This document shows positions 105-41,900 of a stretch of 56,809 nt of DNA, piece by piece; the stretch's first letter is position 1, and each line of letters begins with the position of its first letter. The notes under the pieces are model-generated. The model searched no databases. It saw nothing but the letters and a program-made list of their open reading frames with translations, and was not told where the DNA came from. Source of the stretch: Salinadaptatus halalkaliphilus. GTDB taxonomy: Archaea > Halobacteriota > Halobacteria > Halobacteriales > Natrialbaceae. A program made the translations under genes and the position numbers. The DNA lies in NCBI RefSeq assembly GCF_006543045.1, contig NZ_RBZW01000076.1:1-56809 (forward strand), given 5' to 3'.

Positions 105-186
105 ATACGGTTTACTGTACGTCATTTCCGTCGCACCCGCGACCCGGGCGGCGGGTGCGCCGGTAAATCGGTACAGTAATCCGTAT
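105..186 (+). repeat. 82-bp palindromic repeat, copy 1
   Basis: The element starts ATACGGTTTACTGTAC and ends GTACAGTAATCCGTAT, with the dyad centred on CCCGGG near 146-151. By hand, 32 of 41 positions pair between the arms, so a transcript would fold into a long hairpin. Two further copies of exactly the same length lie at 30784-30865 and 40218-40299. The flank CTGATACGG is shared with copy 3 (reverse strand) and with a solo end beside cysK. No reading frame or transposase is present, so it resembles a MITE/REP-like element or a structured terminator rather than an insertion sequence. Confidence 0.85.
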
Positions 187-10214: not shown

Positions 10215-10691
10215 ATGAGGCGCGAGCACTTTACGTTAGACGTTAGCAATGTCGACTGGGTCGAAACCGATGGCGAACCAAAAAAACCTGCCGTATCGAT
10301 CGAGTTTACTGGCCCAGAGTCGATGCTTCGCGAGCGCCTCACCGGGACCGACGGCGACGTGCTCGCAGCGAGCGAAACTGATGTCGCGCTTCGACTTCAG
10401 GAGCCACTCGGGGACGATGCCGACGGCGTCGTCAGCGTCACGAACCGCATCACTGGCGAGTTCATTCTCGAGCTCAACGAGGCGGCCGACGATGTCTTGC
10501 AGTTCATCGCCGCCGCTCGCGGCTACGGCGAAAGCACGAACGACGACGATGGACGGTACGACGTCTCGATTACGCTCGAGGGCGCGGACGAGCCGTTCGT
10601 CAGCTACGACAAACAAACGTTTCTGGTCTACGACGAGGAAGGGAGTCTCCTCCGCCAGCACAGCCTGATCCCGAGCGGCGTCGAACTCTGA
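10215..10691 (+). CDS. Conserved haloarchaeal protein (DUF5793-like)
   Basis: A 158-aa soluble acidic protein of unknown function, beginning MRREHFTLDVSNVDWVETDG. From memory it resembles a small haloarchaea-restricted family (DUF5793); I hold that assignment at moderate confidence. It alternates short strands with acidic loops, has no cysteines, and has no signal peptide or membrane segment. The C-terminus reads GSLLRQHSLIPSGVEL. The frame is open upstream to 10062, but the ATG at 10215 fits the acidic composition while the upstream part is arginine-rich. It is divergent from the ATPase gene at 10070 and has no operon partner. Confidence 0.7.
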   Translation: MRREHFTLDVSNVDWVETDGEPKKPAVSIEFTGPESMLRERLTGTDGDVLAASETDVALRLQEPLGDDADGVVSVTNRITGEFILELNEAADDVLQFIAAARGYGESTNDDDGRYDVSITLEGADEPFVSYDKQTFLVYDEEGSLLRQHSLIPSGVEL

Positions 10692-10880
10692 GACGGACTG
10701 GTGTCGTTCGATACCGGTGATCGCTCGAGCGAGTCCACCGATCACCGGAAACCGCGACACCAATCCGTACGATAGACTGCGATACCACGAGCCACGAGCC
10801 CGAATACGGCGCCAATACCCGATAGTTCGCTGCTGTTTCCAGCGGCTCGAACTCCCGGGGCGTTGGAACGGACCGGCAAT

Positions 10881-10914: not shown

Positions 10915-12099
10915 ATGCCAGCGGAAGCCGGCGGGTCGACGATATCGAACGAACGGTTCGGCAGGACGACGACCAAGAAACCCACGGAAGCGTCGGTGAC
11001 CAACGACGACATCGTCCTCGAGCTCGACGGCGTTGGTAAGGCTTACGGCACCGAGACGGTTATCTCCGACCTCTCCGTCTCCGTCCACGACGGCGAGATT
11101 CTGACCCTGCTCGGTCCATCCGGCTGTGGCAAAACGACGACGTTGCGCCTGATCGCCGGCCTCGAGAAGCCCTCGGACGGACAGATTCGCCTGCAAGATG
11201 TCGATGTCGCGGGGAACGGCCAGTTCGTCGCTCCCGAAAATCGCGGGGTCGGCGTCGTCTTCCAGGAGTTCGCACTCTTCCCGCATCTCACAGCCCGCGA
11301 AAACGTCGCGTTCGGCCTCAAAGAGTGGCCCGCCGAAAAGCGTGAGACACGCGTCACGGAACTGCTCGAGTTAGTCGGCCTGGCGAGTCACGGCGAACAT
11401 TATCCCGAAGAACTCTCCGGCGGCCAACAACAGCGTATCGCCCTCGCGCGGTCGCTCGCACCCGAACCCGAGATGCTGTTGCTCGACGAACCGTTCTCGA
11501 ATCTAGATGTCGACCTACGCGTCGAGATGCGCGAGGAGGTTCGCCGAATCATCAAAGAAGCCGGCGTCACGGCTATCTCCGTGACCCACGACCAGGAAGA
11601 GGCGCTATCGATCTCCGATCGGGTCGCCGTGATGAACGAGGGTGATATCGAGCAGATCGATCGCCCCGAGCGCGTCTTTCAGGACCCGAAATCGCGTTTC
11701 GTCGCTGGGTTTCTCGGCCACGCGAGCTTCCTCTCTGGTGCCGTCGAAGGCGACCACGTCGATACGGCGATCGGGCGCGTTCTCAGAGACGACGTCAACG
11801 GACTGGCCCACCACTACGACGGAACCGAGATCGACCTACTCGTCCGTCCCGACGACGTCACCGCCTACCCCGCCAGCACTCCCGAGTCGAACGGGCAGGT
11901 CGTCTACCGACGGTATCTCGGTCCCACCGTTCTCTACCGGGTCGAGCTCGATTCGGGCGAAACCATCGAGTGTATGCACAACCACTCGGATCGGATCGAT
12001 CTCGACGAACGCGTCGCGGTCAGGGTGACCGCCGATCACGACCTCGCCTGGTTCCCCGCAAACCAGCGCGAGACGTCGACTCCCGACTCCGCCGACTGA
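10915..12099 (+). CDS. ABC transporter ATP-binding protein, ferric iron/polyamine (FbpC/PotA) type
   Basis: A 394-aa ATPase subunit. Walker A is GPSGCGKTT, the Q-loop sits in GVVFQEFALFPHL, the signature is LSGGQQQRIALARSL, Walker B is MLLLDEPFSNLD, and the H-loop is SVTHDQEE. The C-terminal 130 residues form a TOBE-like regulatory domain. The order and length fit FbpC/PotA-like importers of ferric iron, polyamine or sugars. I chose the ATG at 10915; a GTG further in would remove about 28 poorly conserved residues. No permease or binding-protein gene flanks it, so it is an orphan subunit. The upstream metal-repressor-like operator favours an iron role. Confidence 0.88.
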   Translation: MPAEAGGSTISNERFGRTTTKKPTEASVTNDDIVLELDGVGKAYGTETVISDLSVSVHDGEILTLLGPSGCGKTTTLRLIAGLEKPSDGQIRLQDVDVAGNGQFVAPENRGVGVVFQEFALFPHLTARENVAFGLKEWPAEKRETRVTELLELVGLASHGEHYPEELSGGQQQRIALARSLAPEPEMLLLDEPFSNLDVDLRVEMREEVRRIIKEAGVTAISVTHDQEEALSISDRVAVMNEGDIEQIDRPERVFQDPKSRFVAGFLGHASFLSGAVEGDHVDTAIGRVLRDDVNGLAHHYDGTEIDLLVRPDDVTAYPASTPESNGQVVYRRYLGPTVLYRVELDSGETIECMHNHSDRIDLDERVAVRVTADHDLAWFPANQRETSTPDSAD

Positions 12100-12304
12100 G
12101 ACGGGTCACTGCAAGTCAGTTCCGGTCCAACCACGACCGTCTGTGAGACGTGCCGTCCGTGGTCGCCGTCACCTTCGGACCCGCCGTCTGCTCGTGTTGG
12201 TAATGGCCAGCAGGAATACGTCCGACGTGCGAACCGCCGATTCGAGGGCATTTGAGAGCGTCCTGCACACAATCCTTAAGCCGAGACCGTGCTTACAGGT
12301 GAGC

Positions 12305-26779: not shown

Positions 26780-26796
26780 CCTACAGTAGTCCGTAT
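26780..26796. repeat. Solo end of the palindromic repeat at the cysK stop codon
   Basis: CTACAGTAGTCCGTAT ends at 26796, inside the cysK stop codon (TCA on the plus strand at 26796-26798). It differs from the right end of the full repeats (GTACAGTAATCCGTAT) at two positions. The remainder of the element is missing or strongly shortened; an inner TACGGTAGAACGG begins near 26767. It is probably the remnant of a decayed copy. Confidence 0.5.
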
Positions 26797-27773
26797 CAGT
26801 CGAAGAGCCCCGTCGAGAGGTAGCGCTCGCCGCTGTCCCAGAAGACGGTGACGACCAGCGGACAGTCCTCGACCGTCTCGCCGCCGTCCGGTTCCGGCGC
26901 GGATCGCTCGCCGTCGAACGCGCTCGGAACGGTCGGACACTCCTGGTCGGGATCGGCGATCTCCCGGGCGATTCGCTGGGCGACCAGACTGGTCGCGCCG
27001 CTGGATTGGCCCACGAGCACCCCCTCCTCGCGGGCGAGGCGACGACACTCCGCCTCGGCATCCTCGAGTTCGACCGTCTCGACGCAGTCGATCAGGTCCC
27101 GATCGAGGTTCTCGCTGACGAAACCCGGGCCCATTCCCTGGAAGTCGTCGTCGCCGGCCTCGCCCGTCGAGAGGACGGGGTTTTTCGCTGGTTCGACGGC
27201 GACGATATCGACGTCCGGAAACGCCTCGCGGAGTCGCCGACCGGTTCCCGACAGCGTCCCGCCGGTGCCGACGCCAGCGACGAAGGCGTCGACCTCGCGC
27301 TCGCCCACCTGTTCGACGATCTCTTGGCCGGTCGTCTTGTAGTGAGCCTCGGGGTTCGCCGGGTTGTCGAACTGGCCGAGTTGGATCGCGCCCTCGGCCT
27401 CGAGTTCGTCGGCCCGCTCGCGGGCGGCGGTCATATCGCCGTCGACGAGCTCGAGTTCCGCGCCGTAGGCGGCCATCAGCTGGCGGCGTTCCTCGGATTT
27501 GTCCGACGGCATGACGATCGTTAGATCGTAACCGCGCGCGGCGGCTACGAGCGCGAGTCCGATACCGGTGTTGCCGCTGGTGGGCTCGACGAGCCAGTCA
27601 CCGGGTTCGATCGTCCCATCGCGTTCGGCCGCCCGGATCATCTCCATCGCCGGCCGGTCCTTGGCCGAGCCGCCGGGATTGAACGACTCGATCTTCGCTG
27701 CGACGGTCGCGCCCGCCGGTGACTCGACGGCGACGAGCGGCGAGCCGATGGTATCCAGGATGCTCCCGTTCAT
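26796..27773 (-). CDS. cysK: Cysteine synthase-like PLP enzyme
   Basis: A 325-aa fold-type II PLP enzyme. FNPGGSAKDRPAMEMI supplies the Schiff-base Lys, VEPTSGNTGIGLALVAA the substrate-binding loop, and AGVGTGGTLSGTGRRL the phosphate loop. The family makes cysteine from O-acetylserine and sulfide; cystathionine beta-synthase-like activity is an alternative. A GTATACG box near 27800 on the minus strand sits about 26 nt upstream of the ATG. The stop codon overlaps the end of a decayed palindromic repeat. The C-terminus carries an acidic insertion (EPDGGETVED) after CPTVPS, typical of haloarchaeal versions. Confidence 0.88.
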   Translation of the reverse strand: MNGSILDTIGSPLVAVESPAGATVAAKIESFNPGGSAKDRPAMEMIRAAERDGTIEPGDWLVEPTSGNTGIGLALVAAARGYDLTIVMPSDKSEERRQLMAAYGAELELVDGDMTAARERADELEAEGAIQLGQFDNPANPEAHYKTTGQEIVEQVGEREVDAFVAGVGTGGTLSGTGRRLREAFPDVDIVAVEPAKNPVLSTGEAGDDDFQGMGPGFVSENLDRDLIDCVETVELEDAEAECRRLAREEGVLVGQSSGATSLVAQRIAREIADPDQECPTVPSAFDGERSAPEPDGGETVEDCPLVVTVFWDSGERYLSTGLFD

Positions 27774-29247: not shown

Positions 29248-29322
29248 TCCGTTCCACAAACGCGGGGTCGACCGTCCGTGAACCCTGCAGGGCTAAGTGC
29301 CCGCGTCACCGAGACGGACGTA

Positions 29323-30525
29323 ATGAACGGCAACCGCTTCGGTCGCCTCTTTCAGGTGACCACGTTCGGCGAGAGCCACGGGGAGGCGATGGGCTGTACC
29401 GTCTCGGGCTGTCCCGCCGGCCTCGAGCTCACAGCAGACGAAATCCAGCGCGACCTCGATCGACGCCGACCCGGCCAATCGATGATCACCACCAGCCGGG
29501 GCGAACCCGACGCCGTCTCGATCAAGTCCGGCATCCAGGACGGCTACACGACCGGGACGCCGATCGGGATGGTCATCCAGAACAAGGACGCCCGCTCGGA
29601 GAAGTACGAACCGTTCATCACCGCGCCGCGGCCGAGCCACGGCGATTTCACCTACTCCGCGAAGTTCGGCACGCGAAACTGGGGTGGGGGCGGCCGCTCG
29701 TCGGCCCGCGAGACCGCAAACTGGGTCGCGGCGGGTGCCATCGCGAAGAAACTGCTGGCGCTCGAGGGGATCGAACTCAAAGCCCACGTGAACCAGATCG
29801 GTGACGTCGAGGCACCCGAGATCAGTTTCGAGCAGTTGCTCGAGGAAAGCGAGGAGAACGACGTTCGCTGTGCCCATCCCGAAACCGCCGCAGAGATGCA
29901 GGATCTCATCGAGGACTACCAGGAAGAAGGCGACTCGATCGGCGGCAGCATCTACTTCGAGGCCCAAGGGATTCCGCCGGGGCTTGGTGCGCCCCGATTC
30001 GACTCGCTATCCGCTCGGCTCGGCCAGGCGATGATGGCGATTCCGGCGACGACGGCCTTCGAGTTCGGCCTGGGTCGCGAGGCTCGCGAGTGGACCGGCA
30101 AGGATCGCAACGACGACTGGGCGTTCGATGATAGCGAGGCGCACCGCGCCTCGGATGACGAGAGCGGCGACGAGCCGCGAACGTGGGGCAACCCGACGCC
30201 CGTCGAGAACGACCACGGCGGCATTCAGGGTGGCATCTCGAGCGGCGAACCCGTCTACGGCGAGGTGACCTTACACGCGCCGACCTCGATCCCCAAGAGC
30301 CAGCAGACGGCCGACTGGGAAACCGGCGAGCTCAAAGAGGAACAGGTCATCGGCCGCCACGACCCCGTGCTCCCGCCGCGAGGCGTCCCGGTCGTCGAGG
30401 CGATGCTCGCGCTGACACTCGTCGACTTCATGTTGCTGTCGGGGCGGCTCAACCCCGACCGCGTCGACGACCAGCCCGGCGAATACGATACGGATTACCA
30501 CCCGAGCAACCCACGCAACGAGTAG
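29323..30525 (+). CDS. aroC: Chorismate synthase
   Basis: A 400-aa enzyme that converts EPSP to chorismate, the last common step to aromatic amino acids, using reduced FMN. It has TFGESHGEAMGCTVSG at the N-terminus, the DLDRRRPGQS loop, the GRSSARET block and the NDHGGIQGGISSGEPV substrate and flavin loop. A C-terminal DPVLPPRGVPVVEAMLAL is also typical. An acidic segment (SEAHRASDDESGDEP) near residue 275 is a halophilic insertion. I chose the ATG at 29323 because GNRFGRLFQVTTFGESHG starts the family; the frame is open to 29278. Confidence 0.95.
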   Translation: MNGNRFGRLFQVTTFGESHGEAMGCTVSGCPAGLELTADEIQRDLDRRRPGQSMITTSRGEPDAVSIKSGIQDGYTTGTPIGMVIQNKDARSEKYEPFITAPRPSHGDFTYSAKFGTRNWGGGGRSSARETANWVAAGAIAKKLLALEGIELKAHVNQIGDVEAPEISFEQLLEESEENDVRCAHPETAAEMQDLIEDYQEEGDSIGGSIYFEAQGIPPGLGAPRFDSLSARLGQAMMAIPATTAFEFGLGREAREWTGKDRNDDWAFDDSEAHRASDDESGDEPRTWGNPTPVENDHGGIQGGISSGEPVYGEVTLHAPTSIPKSQQTADWETGELKEEQVIGRHDPVLPPRGVPVVEAMLALTLVDFMLLSGRLNPDRVDDQPGEYDTDYHPSNPRNE

Positions 30526-30765: not shown

Positions 30766-30783
30766 ACCGCGCGTCGACGACTC

Positions 30784-30865
30784 ATACGGATTACTGTAAC
30801 GATTTACCGGCGCAACCGCCGCCCGGGTCGCGGCTGGGCCGGCAATGACGTACAGTAAACCGTAT
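30784..30865 (-). repeat. 82-bp palindromic repeat, copy 2 (chimeric arms)
   Basis: Read on the minus strand it begins ATACGGTTTACTGTACG and ends TACAGTAATCCGTAT. From its start through the CCCGGG centre it matches copy 3 exactly as far as I can align by eye. Beyond the centre its TTGCGCCGGTAAATCG arm follows copy 1 instead. It therefore looks like a recombinant of the two types, and its inner stem pairs less well than theirs. It lies between the small membrane protein and the PHP gene. Confidence 0.85.
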
Positions 30866-30940
30866 CATGGTTCCCACCACAGGACAGTTGCCAGTCCGGA
30901 TCGACACAACACCTAACCCCCTGTCGGTAGTTCGAAGCGT

Positions 30941-31732
30941 ATGCAGGATTTTCACGTCCACTCGAACTACTCCGACGGCAGTTTTCTGCAGCGAATGGTC
31001 AACGCGGCCGAACGCGCCGGCCTCGAGGGGGTCGGCTTCGCCGATCACTGTGCGGTCTCCTCGCGCGACGGCATCAGGAAGATGCGACGGGCCTACGGCT
31101 TCAATCTCGATCTGACCTACGAGCGCCGCCGGCAGGCGATCGACGGCGTTCGCGAGAAATCGTCCATCGAGGTCTACGACGCCGTCGAGATGGACTACGA
31201 TCCGCGTGACGAAACCGAGATCCGCGACTTTCTCGAGAGCGCCGAGTTCGACTACGCCATCGGTAGCGTCCACGGCGTCGACGGCAAGAACGTCCAGGTC
31301 CCCGCGAACTTCACGGCGTTGACCGACGACGAGCGAGACCGCGTCGTCGACGCCTACGTCGACCAACTCGTCTCGCTGATCGAGTCGGAGCTGTTCGACG
31401 TCGCCGCCCACGTCGACCTCCTCACCCGGACGCCGCCGCTCCGGGGCCGATTCGACGAGACCCAGTACCGCCGCGTCGCTCGCGCGTTCGCCGAGTCGCG
31501 GACGATCCCCGAGATCAACGCCGGCCGGGCCGTAACCGACGAGGAAATTCTCCACCCCGCCGAGCCGTTTCTCGAGGTGCTCGTCGAGCACGACGTCGCC
31601 TTTACGCTGGGAACTGATTCACACGCACCGACGGAGATCGGCCCTCGAGCCGATTTTCTGGCGGACGTGATCGATACCAACGATATCGACCCGACCGTGC
31701 CACCGAGTCTCGAGACGATGACGCGCCACTAA
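30941..31732 (+). CDS. PHP-domain phosphoesterase (histidinol-phosphatase type)
   Basis: A 263-aa protein beginning MQDFHVHSNYSDGSF, whose HxH pair is the first metal ligand set. GFADHCAV, EMDYDP, AIGSVHGVDG, AAHVDLLTR and TLGTDSHAP follow, giving the complete PHP trinuclear metal site in order. The group contains HisK-type histidinol phosphatases and other phosphoesterases. Histidinol phosphatase is the leading guess because haloarchaea often use this fold for that step, but no his genes are nearby. A CACCTAACCC stretch about 30 nt upstream may be its promoter. Confidence 0.82.
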   Translation: MQDFHVHSNYSDGSFLQRMVNAAERAGLEGVGFADHCAVSSRDGIRKMRRAYGFNLDLTYERRRQAIDGVREKSSIEVYDAVEMDYDPRDETEIRDFLESAEFDYAIGSVHGVDGKNVQVPANFTALTDDERDRVVDAYVDQLVSLIESELFDVAAHVDLLTRTPPLRGRFDETQYRRVARAFAESRTIPEINAGRAVTDEEILHPAEPFLEVLVEHDVAFTLGTDSHAPTEIGPRADFLADVIDTNDIDPTVPPSLETMTRH

Positions 31733-39261: not shown

Positions 39262-39689
39262 CCACGGCATCGGCGAGCGAGTCGAGCGTGTCCGGCGTGG
39301 CGAGATGTCGTATCGTAATTCGACATTAAATGGTGGGAACGAAACTACCCCGGCAGTCTCGATCATCGTGTCCAACCGTGGCCTCGAAACCGACAAGCTG
39401 GCACGGAGGAACGGCTCATACCGACTGCTGAAAGTCGTTACCGGCGAAACCGCAGGTGGGTTCACGGTCGCGCCGGTAAGTGATAGCAGCCCGTATCAAT
39501 AGCCCTTTTCGTCGGTACTGTGCGTAGCCGATGAAAGTAACAAACTGTTAGTAACGAGTAGGCATTGCGGGCAGTCTACGACACCGAACCTGACACTGTG
39601 GAATCCATAGCTGAGTAGCGTAACGATGGTGACTGTTGACGGATACCACGGATAACTCCGGACTGGGTGGCAACGCCATCCGTGAGAGC
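39262..39689. other. Intergenic region containing a diverged palindromic repeat
   Basis: No gene is supported. A 79-bp diverged relative of the palindromic repeat lies at 39418-39496. Short AT-rich blocks near 39312-39335 and 39535-39560 may be promoter elements for the downstream Tat-signal gene. Confidence 0.5.
39418..39496 (-). repeat. Diverged 79-bp copy of the palindromic repeat
   Basis: The plus strand starts ATACCGACTGCTGAAAG, continues TTACCGGCGAAACCGC, and ends GCCGGTAAGTGATAGC with terminal CCCGTAT. Aligned with copy 2 on the plus strand, ATAC, the G-A-CTG spacing, TTACCGGCG and AACCGC are kept, as is the closing CCGTAT. The centre is changed and three bases are missing. It is an older family member. 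Confidence 0.6.
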
Positions 39690-40206: not shown

Positions 40207-40217
40207 CTCTCGGTATC

Positions 40218-40299
40218 ATACGGTTTACTGTACGTCATTGCCGGCCCAGCCGCGACCCGGGCGGCGGCTGGGCCGGTACATCGGTACAGTAATCCGTAT
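40218..40299 (+). repeat. 82-bp palindromic repeat, copy 3
   Basis: The element begins ATACGGTTTACTGTACG and ends GTACAGTAATCCGTAT, exactly 82 bp like copies 1 and 2. Both inner arms read CCGGCCCAGCCGC, so the hairpin is well paired here, whereas copy 1 has CGCACCCGC on both arms. Its last base is the first base of the acyl-CoA dehydrogenase stop codon (TCA, 40299-40301). It separates two convergent genes. Confidence 0.85.
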
Positions 40300-41543
40300 C
40301 AGTGACCGCCCGATTCCGCACCGGTGTTCGGGTTCCCGAACCGCGTTAGGGCCTCGAGTTCCTCCTCGGCGACGTCCTCGAAGGCAGCTCGCGCGATAAC
40401 ACGGCGGTGGACCTCGTCGGCGCCGTCGACGATCCGGAACTGGCGGACCGACTCGTAGAAGTCCGAGATCGGAAGGTCCTTGCCGATGCCGTTCGCGCCA
40501 CAACACTGTACCGCAAGATCGATCGCGTCCTGGGTCGCGTTCGCGGTGAATACCTTACACATCGAGACGGGAACTCGCGCTTGATCGCCGGCGGCGATGC
40601 GATCTGCAGCGTCTCGGATCGCCGTCCGAGCGACGTGCAGTTTGGTTTCGGCGTCGGCGATCCGGTGACGAAGCGACTGCTTGTCCGACAGCGTTGAATC
40701 GAATCCACGGCGTTCGCTCGTGTATGCTTTCGCGATCTCGAGCGAACGCTGTGCCATCCCCGAGTAGCGCATGCAGTGGGTGAGTCGGGCCGGTCCGAGT
40801 CGTTCCTGGGCGTGGGTAAATCCCCCGTTCAACTCGCCGAGCAGGTGCTCCTCGGGGACGCGAACGTTCTCGTAGCGGATTTCGGCGTGAGACGCGCCGC
40901 GGTTACCGCCACCCATATGCGGTACGTCACGCACGACGGTGACGCCGTCGGCGTCGGCCGGCACGAGAAAGAGCGAACACCCTTCGTAGGGATGGGCGTC
41001 CTGATCGGTCCGAGCGAGGACGATCAGGATATCCGCCTCGAGGCCCTGGGTGGTCCACCACTTGTGGCCGTCGATGACCCACTCGTCGCCGTCCCGTTCA
41101 GCGGTCGTCTGGATCATTTTCGGGTCCGAGCCGGCACCCTGCATCGGCTCGGTCATCGAGAATCCGGATTTGATCTCGCCAGCGACGAGTGGCTCCAGGT
41201 AGGTCTCCTTTTGGAGTTCATCACCGGCGAGTTCCAACAGGTGCATGTTCCCCTCGTCGGGAGCGTCGACACGCATCGCAACCTGGCCCAGGAGACTGCG
41301 ACCTGCCTCTTCGAACGCTGGCAGGGCGTCCCGGAAATCGAGGCCCATCCCGCCGTATTCCTCGGGAATCTGGGGTGCGTATACGTCGTACTCGCGGGCC
41401 GCCTCCCGAAGATCGGCGACCGTCCCGCTCGAGACGGCCATACCGCCCGCCCGCTCGCGCTCGAGGGGCAAGACGACCTCTTCCATCAAATCGTGAGCGC
41501 GGCTCGCAACCGCCCGTGCTTGTTCTGAGTCGGCATATCGCAT
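40299..41543 (-). CDS. Acyl-CoA dehydrogenase
   Basis: A 414-aa FAD enzyme of fatty-acid or branched-chain acyl-CoA oxidation. FSMTEPMQGAGSDPKMIQTT and GHKWWTTQGLEADILIVLAR are the FAD/substrate loops. ERLGPARLTHCMRYSGMAQR and the CCGANGIGKDLPISDFYESV stretch belong to the C-terminal helical domain. The residue at the usual catalytic Glu position cannot be read confidently by eye. The ATG at 41543 is chosen because the upstream residues are not family-like. A TTTATATCC-type AT-rich block about 65-80 nt upstream may be its promoter. It ends at a palindromic repeat. Confidence 0.88.
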   Translation of the reverse strand: MRYADSEQARAVASRAHDLMEEVVLPLERERAGGMAVSSGTVADLREAAREYDVYAPQIPEEYGGMGLDFRDALPAFEEAGRSLLGQVAMRVDAPDEGNMHLLELAGDELQKETYLEPLVAGEIKSGFSMTEPMQGAGSDPKMIQTTAERDGDEWVIDGHKWWTTQGLEADILIVLARTDQDAHPYEGCSLFLVPADADGVTVVRDVPHMGGGNRGASHAEIRYENVRVPEEHLLGELNGGFTHAQERLGPARLTHCMRYSGMAQRSLEIAKAYTSERRGFDSTLSDKQSLRHRIADAETKLHVARTAIRDAADRIAAGDQARVPVSMCKVFTANATQDAIDLAVQCCGANGIGKDLPISDFYESVRQFRIVDGADEVHRRVIARAAFEDVAEEELEALTRFGNPNTGAESGGH

Positions 41544-41900
41544 ACGAACGCTACAAACGTTGGCGACGTAAGCACAGTTGGGAACTCCCACCAGAGTGGA
41601 ACATGGTAAATATATTTATATCCGATTCCTGACGATATAAAACACCGCCGTATGCTGGGCACGGACGATGGGCTAGTAACAACGACACTCGTGAAACCAT
41701 CTAAATTCCATATAAGTATTCTATATTTGATGTTAGAGAAGGAGGAAATAAATATATTTCTAATAGATATGACCATTCAGAATGCTCTCGGTCCATCCAG
41801 GTGTGCTGGCTAAAATCGGCCATCTGCGAATCGCACCGGATTATCAGAGTTGGTAATCGGCACCTGAATTTTTTGAGGGGTGACTGTTTGGTTGAATCCA
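41544..41900. other. AT-rich divergent promoter region (acyl-CoA dehydrogenase / pil operon)
   Basis: Between the divergent starts, 41590-41790 contains several TATA-like words (TAAATATATTTATAT near 41606-41620, ATATAAG and TATATTT near 41713-41730, AAATATAT near 41750). By count, 41701-41760 is only about 23% G+C, far below its surroundings. I see no gene. The composition suggests promoters, nucleoid-protein binding or foreign DNA. The untranslated leader of the pil operon could exceed 100 nt. Confidence 0.55.

Follow-up and report, generated by a model that had tools for sequence, protein, structure and literature searches.

Short palindromes of the haloarchaeon Salinadaptatus halalkaliphilus are probably MITE-like elements that duplicate a TNA target and frequently adjoin stop codons

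The palindromic repeats dispersed through the genome of Salinadaptatus halalkaliphilus are very probably copies of a nonautonomous, MITE-like transposable element, about 80 bp long, that begins with TACGG, ends with CCGTA, and duplicates a TNA triplet upon insertion. The element spreads to new sites, including sites within other repeats, and persists across haloarchaeal families. An earlier note on contig NZ_RBZW01000076.1 (positions 1 to 56,809, forward strand; this whole stretch of 56,809 nucleotides is referred to here as the window) had suggested that the palindromes are a MITE, a REP-like element, or a hairpin terminator. Taken together, these suggestions are partly borne out: the first is strongly supported by the behavior of the element, namely, its terminal inverted repeats (TIRs), TNA target duplication, and empty orthologous and paralogous sites, while the second applies only loosely and the third did not withstand analysis.

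The palindromes and their genome-wide family

Three copies are present in the window as previously described, at positions 105 to 186, 30784 to 30865, and 40218 to 40299, each 82 bp long with ATACGG...CCGTAT termini and a CCCGGG center. They are indeed palindromes, but calling their arms of about 41 bp near-perfect was generous, as 32, 30, and 32 of the 41 pairs match, respectively. An inverted-repeat search listed two of the three, with an arm complementarity of 78%. This imperfection is itself conserved and includes an internal asymmetric stretch, which reads GTCATT in one arm and CGATTT in the other.

The genome to which the window belongs comprises 4,521,535 bp in 77 contigs, and a search of all of it for the terminal pattern with up to two mismatches gave 263 forward and 264 reverse matches, 527 in all, compared with 2 for the reversed control. 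The earlier note had tied the family to the existence of further copies that keep the palindrome, and the family survived this check. Direct reading covered about 40% of the genome, including a sample of about 1.61 Mb (1,614,365 bp) made up of contigs C28, C41, C22, C29, and C71 together with 60 kb of C9. A profile search of this sample returned 133 nonoverlapping copies at an E value of ≤1e-3, 94 of them at 1e-10, and the best E value obtained with the same profile on the shuffled sample was only 3.5. Matches that did not have both ends (24 of the 133) were left out of the duplication analysis, leaving 109 full copies; the 49 end pairs found by terminal-repeat pairing include nested pairs with a common end. 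Twenty-one of the full copies have an identical counterpart in the sample, and 55 have one of at least 95% identity, which marks recent activity.

Target duplication and empty sites

In 97 of the 109 full copies, the bases that immediately flank the palindrome on the left and on the right are identical (CC in 47, GG in 47, AA in 2, and TT in 1); they are complementary in only 3. Since the outer bases are identical rather than complementary, they reflect a target duplication rather than a longer palindrome, and the element itself therefore runs from TACGG to CCGTA, 80 bp, between two TNA copies, its true boundary lying one base further in than that of the 82-bp palindrome. A check for target-site duplications, which the earlier note had proposed, was thus positive: a TNA triplet is duplicated, and its middle base is equal in the 97 copies just mentioned. 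The duplication is exact in 84 of the 109 copies, whose flanks yield a palindromic target of about CGWC-TSA-GWCG, and the remaining 25, whose flanking triplets do not match exactly as TNA, are read as decayed.

By this boundary, the 80-bp core of copy 1 spans positions 106 to 185 (+ strand), and the triplet TGA can be read from the sequence on both sides, at 103 to 105 and 186 to 188; the interval 105 to 186 had taken in one base of each duplication. The core of copy 2 (30785 to 30864, − strand) has the orientation opposite to that of copies 1 and 3, is flanked by TCA at 30782 to 30784 and 30865 to 30867, and lies between a chorismate synthase gene (29278 to 30525) and a PHP-domain gene (30941 to 31732). 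The core of copy 3 (40219 to 40298, + strand) is preceded by TCA at 40216 to 40218 and followed by TCA at 40299 to 40301, which on the − strand is the TGA stop codon of an acyl-CoA dehydrogenase gene (40299 to 41591, − strand).

A fourth full copy, which is diverged and was absent from the earlier list of palindromes, was found as a profile match at 39418 to 39496 (E value, 2.6e-9), its core spanning 39419 to 39495 (+ strand) between TCA triplets at 39416 to 39418 and 39496 to 39498. The window also contains remnants: a single terminal repeat at 26782 to 26796 (− strand) abuts the TGA stop of a gene for a pyridoxal phosphate (PLP)-dependent enzyme (26796 to 27773, − strand), and half an element at 12100 to 12138 (+ strand; E value, 0.011) begins immediately behind an ABC-transporter ATPase gene whose TGA stop codon ends at 12099 (+ strand). 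A possible but doubtful remnant of a related subfamily (10692 to 10769, + strand), with an E value of 2.7 that is not significant alone, directly follows a DUF5793 gene whose TGA stop codon ends at 10691 (+ strand). More single-ended remnants occur elsewhere in the genome.

Three independent kinds of empty site agree with insertion accompanied by TNA duplication. At an orthologous site in one other genus of the family, genomes G057 and G060 have a single TCA (...TCA-GTCGCGY...), and genome G056 has two, separated by 80 bp, with the right-hand one continuing as TCA-GTCGCGC...; the sequence of G059 at this site is unrelated, and that of G055 is too diverged to be read. The Natrinema orthologues of the acyl-CoA dehydrogenase gene at copy 3 end in TGA and have no element in the 260 nt shown at all eight loci, and in Natronorubrum halalkaliphilum, a divergent, oppositely oriented copy is found at the stop of the orthologue. 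Finally, at C28:100581-100771, a related palindrome (subfamily 1b, ATACGGATTGTTGTAGCG...) lies inside a 109-bp repeat whose uninterrupted paralogues have a single TCA, and a copy of the 82-bp family interrupts the same 109-bp repeat at C22:136,445-136,637.

It is of note that at one orthologous site, the element is present in opposite orientations in the congeneric genomes G056 and G058 (L309 and L310; start near L309:2038). The two sequences match over 82 bp on the minus strand at 94%, and few copies were found in each genome. Two separate insertions at one stop codon could explain this but are unlikely; the other reading is an in-place inversion of a shared insertion, for which a single case is not proof.

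Association with stop codons

Genes were called with a purpose-made codon-usage script and not with a published caller. By these calls, none of the 109 copies lies inside a gene; 62 are located in gaps between tandem genes, 32 in convergent gaps, 13 in divergent gaps, and 2 at contig edges. In 46 of the 109, the position of the duplicated triplet coincides exactly with the stop of the neighboring gene, which is TGA in 43 cases and TAA in 3. Because both of these codons fit TNA, a gene that receives the element in its stop codon retains an intact stop on its own side of the insertion. Public annotation also has the gene ending in the duplicated triplet at four loci, namely, an archease gene (CP031304), a gene for an FAD-dependent oxidoreductase in Natrialba magadii (NC_013923), a gene for a PHP-domain protein in Halomontanus (NZ_CP119799), and a gene for a GH2 protein in Halomicrobium mukohataei (NC_013201).

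TNA triplets at stops make up 10.8% of the available noncoding-or-stop sites. With a target matrix built from non-stop insertions only, 20.9% of the insertions are expected at stops, compared with 42% observed (binomial P value, 7e-7), so that the observed share is about twice the sequence-based expectation, and the excess is smaller than the raw comparison suggests. What remains of it may be due to the survival of harmless insertions: those in stop codons, like other intergenic ones, would do little harm and accumulate, and those in coding sequence would be purged. Insertion into a TNA stop codon, with a duplication that leaves a stop, is a simple and near-harmless route for a mobile element in a compact genome. 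In the annotation of haloarchaeal genomes, gene ends and small hypothetical open reading frames near copies need care.

The position at gene ends is also what an RNA hairpin would predict, be it an archaeal transcription terminator, as the earlier note had suggested, or a stabilizer of mRNA 3' ends placed after stop codons. Besides the 46 copies that start at a stop codon, this reading has in its favor the preference for convergent over divergent gaps (odds ratio, 4.4, even though divergent gaps have more bases) and the very stable folding of the element (z scores of −4.1 to −7.7 for RNA folds of five sequences). However, the orientation of the element as read from the abutting gene is random, at 22 versus 24. 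Stem-pairing counts, made with the 95 of the 109 copies that are 81 or 82 bp long, indicate that pairing in the stems is preserved, since at least two Watson-Crick types occur at each of 12 positions. They contain no RNA-specific signal, however: G-U and A-C combinations in stems occur 21 versus 17 times in the mRNA orientation (37 copies) and 36 versus 36 times in tandem gaps (54 copies). TTTT is found within the next 20 nt at none of the 46 stop-abutting copies, compared with 3.7% of all stops, which served as the control; a terminator scan at copy 3 gave no terminator-like site; and the window had no Rfam match above the gathering score. The terminator and other RNA readings were rejected on these grounds, and a target duplication would, moreover, be unexpected for a terminator; we regard an RNA hairpin as highly improbable. 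The palindrome would rather be kept at the DNA level, by end synapsis, fold-back, or intrastrand correction.

Conserved layout and possible host function

The layout of the element is conserved: outer 15-bp terminal repeats, which are conserved in both arms, are followed by CGATTTACCGG on one side and CCGGAAATGACT on the other and then by a variable fold-back core, and the conserved subterminal motifs are asymmetric, with CGATTTACCGG at one end and CCGGAAATGAC at the other. Such conserved asymmetric motifs, together with a near-constant length over an order, could also reflect a selected host function. The palindromes might, for instance, be chromosomal sites maintained by the host for binding or topology that spread anciently, the duplication being a by-product of their origin. 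In line with this, the layout is conserved over the order, and the copy density is 82 per Mb on the large contigs of about 63% GC, compared with 3 copies in 223,851 bp from small contigs, most of them of lower GC (twenty stretches; three of these contigs read as N). Furthermore, copies were absent from phage records and, for one exact pattern, from viral contigs. However, genomes differ in their number of ends, which ranges from 0 to more than 100 overall and from 0 to 76 in a single genus; orthologous sites are empty, and copies invade other repeats. A host-maintained site thus seems very unlikely, and we return below to the MITE-like element and how it may be moved.

Mobilization

Three-base-pair target duplications of the TNA or TWA type are made by insertion sequences of the IS5 family of the IS1031 type and by eukaryotic PIF/Harbinger elements. 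The palindromes share the TNA-type duplication with these elements but differ from them in that PF13586 gave only four matches across 125 genomes, all of them weak and lacking these ends, and PF13359 gave no match in the same genomes. For the MITE-like element, the most likely mechanism is that a DDE-type transposase supplied in trans binds the terminal and subterminal sequences and cuts the target with a 3-nt stagger, after which gap repair would produce the TNA duplication.

The earlier observation that no transposase is linked to the palindromes held wherever we looked, i.e., at DDE loci, in the sampled and small contigs, and in the 125 genomes. None of the nine DDE_Tnp_1 (PF01609) loci has these ends, no long end pair with an equal TNA duplication encloses a convincing autonomous element in the 1.61-Mb sample, and the small contigs contain no autonomous element with these ends. 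Two other sources of a parent element were followed up and dismissed: genomes of other genera with low copy numbers yielded typical copies about 80 bp long, a single variant of 139 bp, or decayed copies, and four one-ended matches on named plasmids that were read proved to be about 80 bp again.

Two separate repeat families in the genome also have a TNA duplication. One, of 109 bp with ATACTGTYGGACAGAA ends, is found, for example, at C28:257926-258034, C41:101972-102080, and C41:225168-225276 (L081, L094, and L100), and its ends occur 37 times in the forward and 37 times in the reverse orientation at up to one mismatch. The other, of 102 bp with ATAGGGATTATCGTA ends, is found at C41:153428-153529, C22:299462-299563, and C71:236215-236316. 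No parent element is in view for either family; a 2.3-kb end pair of the 109-bp family, considered as a candidate, turned out to be two decayed ends with no transposase.

It is conceivable, if rather unlikely, that the element is no satellite of an insertion sequence but one part of a system that extends over the archaeal order and resembles bacterial REPIN-RAYT in outline. In such a system, a domesticated chromosomal host transposase that is not flanked by these ends would move fold-back elements into TNA sites and stop codons, and the elements could also be inverted in place, as in the case of G056 and G058. The defined target duplication makes the mobilizer of such short repeats a tractable question.

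Comparison with known elements

The suggestion that the palindromes are REP-like holds in so far as they are palindromic, intergenic, and present in high copy number and abut stops, but they are not of the REP/RAYT kind. A REP- or REPIN-type repeat would be mobilized by a Y1 (HUH) REP-associated transposase, and the genome does encode three Y1 transposases, one of them with a copy of the element about 0.9 kb away. However, one nearby copy over three Y1 loci of 3.3 kb is as the copy density predicts (about 0.8), so that there is no systematic Y1 link. Furthermore, Y1 enzymes are not known to duplicate their targets, and the element makes a 3-bp target duplication. We therefore rejected this explanation, which appears extremely improbable.

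As described in one report (PMC3733652), GTAG/CGTC REPs are 20 to 40 bp long, carry GTAG/CGTC tags, are associated with Y1 transposases, and have termini that frequently provide an adjoining gene with its stop codon. The palindromes are similar to these RAYT-associated repeats in being palindromic, extragenic, and associated with stop codons, but differ from them, as described there, in their length of 80 bp, TNA duplication, and absence of Y1 linkage. According to a review of prokaryotic MITEs (PMC10969869), these are likewise short, noncoding, multicopy elements with TIRs and a target duplication, and the palindromes conform to this, being 80 bp, noncoding, and dispersed, with some copies recent. 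In contrast to the MITEs of that description, nearly the whole length of the element folds back, there is a strong excess at stop codons, and no autonomous partner with the same ends was found in the loci, contigs, and genomes searched.

The family has no description in the literature searched and constitutes a widespread unannotated haloarchaeal repeat, the nearest known relatives in kind being the short (or small) mobile repeats (SMRs) of Haloquadratum walsbyi. According to the report on these repeats (PMC3119063), SMR-A and SMR-B carry conspicuous inverted repeats at their ends and lack a transposase; a genome can contain up to 54 copies, and their mobilizer is termed "enigmatic." They are said not to duplicate their target, and SMR-A is said to target the palindromes of IS605-type elements. 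Compared by description only, both groups are haloarchaeal, about 80 to 110 bp long, and without a transposase and have TIRs, and the related 102-bp and 109-bp families also fall within the SMR size range of 80 to 110 bp. Unlike SMRs, as so described, the palindromes have a TNA duplication, and their sites are intergenic or at stop codons.

Spread among haloarchaea

Related haloarchaea, in which the earlier note had proposed a search, also carry the family. TIR ends with up to one mismatch were found in 85 of 125 Natrialbaceae genomes, representing 20 of 29 genera of this family, and a longer end pattern with up to three mismatches was found in 117 of 392 genomes across the order, representing 35 of 96 genera; the control gave 0 in all genomes in both searches. 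By manual count, about 50 of the 117 genomes are outside the family. Twenty loci from order-wide genomes were read, and most are elements of 63 to 82 bp, many with TNA duplications, while two (L287 and L303) have no convincing right end. Examples on named plasmids come from Natrinema, Natrialba, Natronorubrum, Halomontanus, Halomicrobium, Haloarcula, Halococcus, and Halostella. Klebsiella and Burkholderia entries in a sequence search were 18-base chance matches (E value, 6) and were ignored. Variants of 139 to 140 bp are present at C28:436414-436552, C41:55552-55690, C41:165427-165565, and C41:314585-314724 and also at L254; they carry an insert of 57 to 58 bp (GGTGAGTCGAAC...GAGTCAACC), which is found in another genus too.
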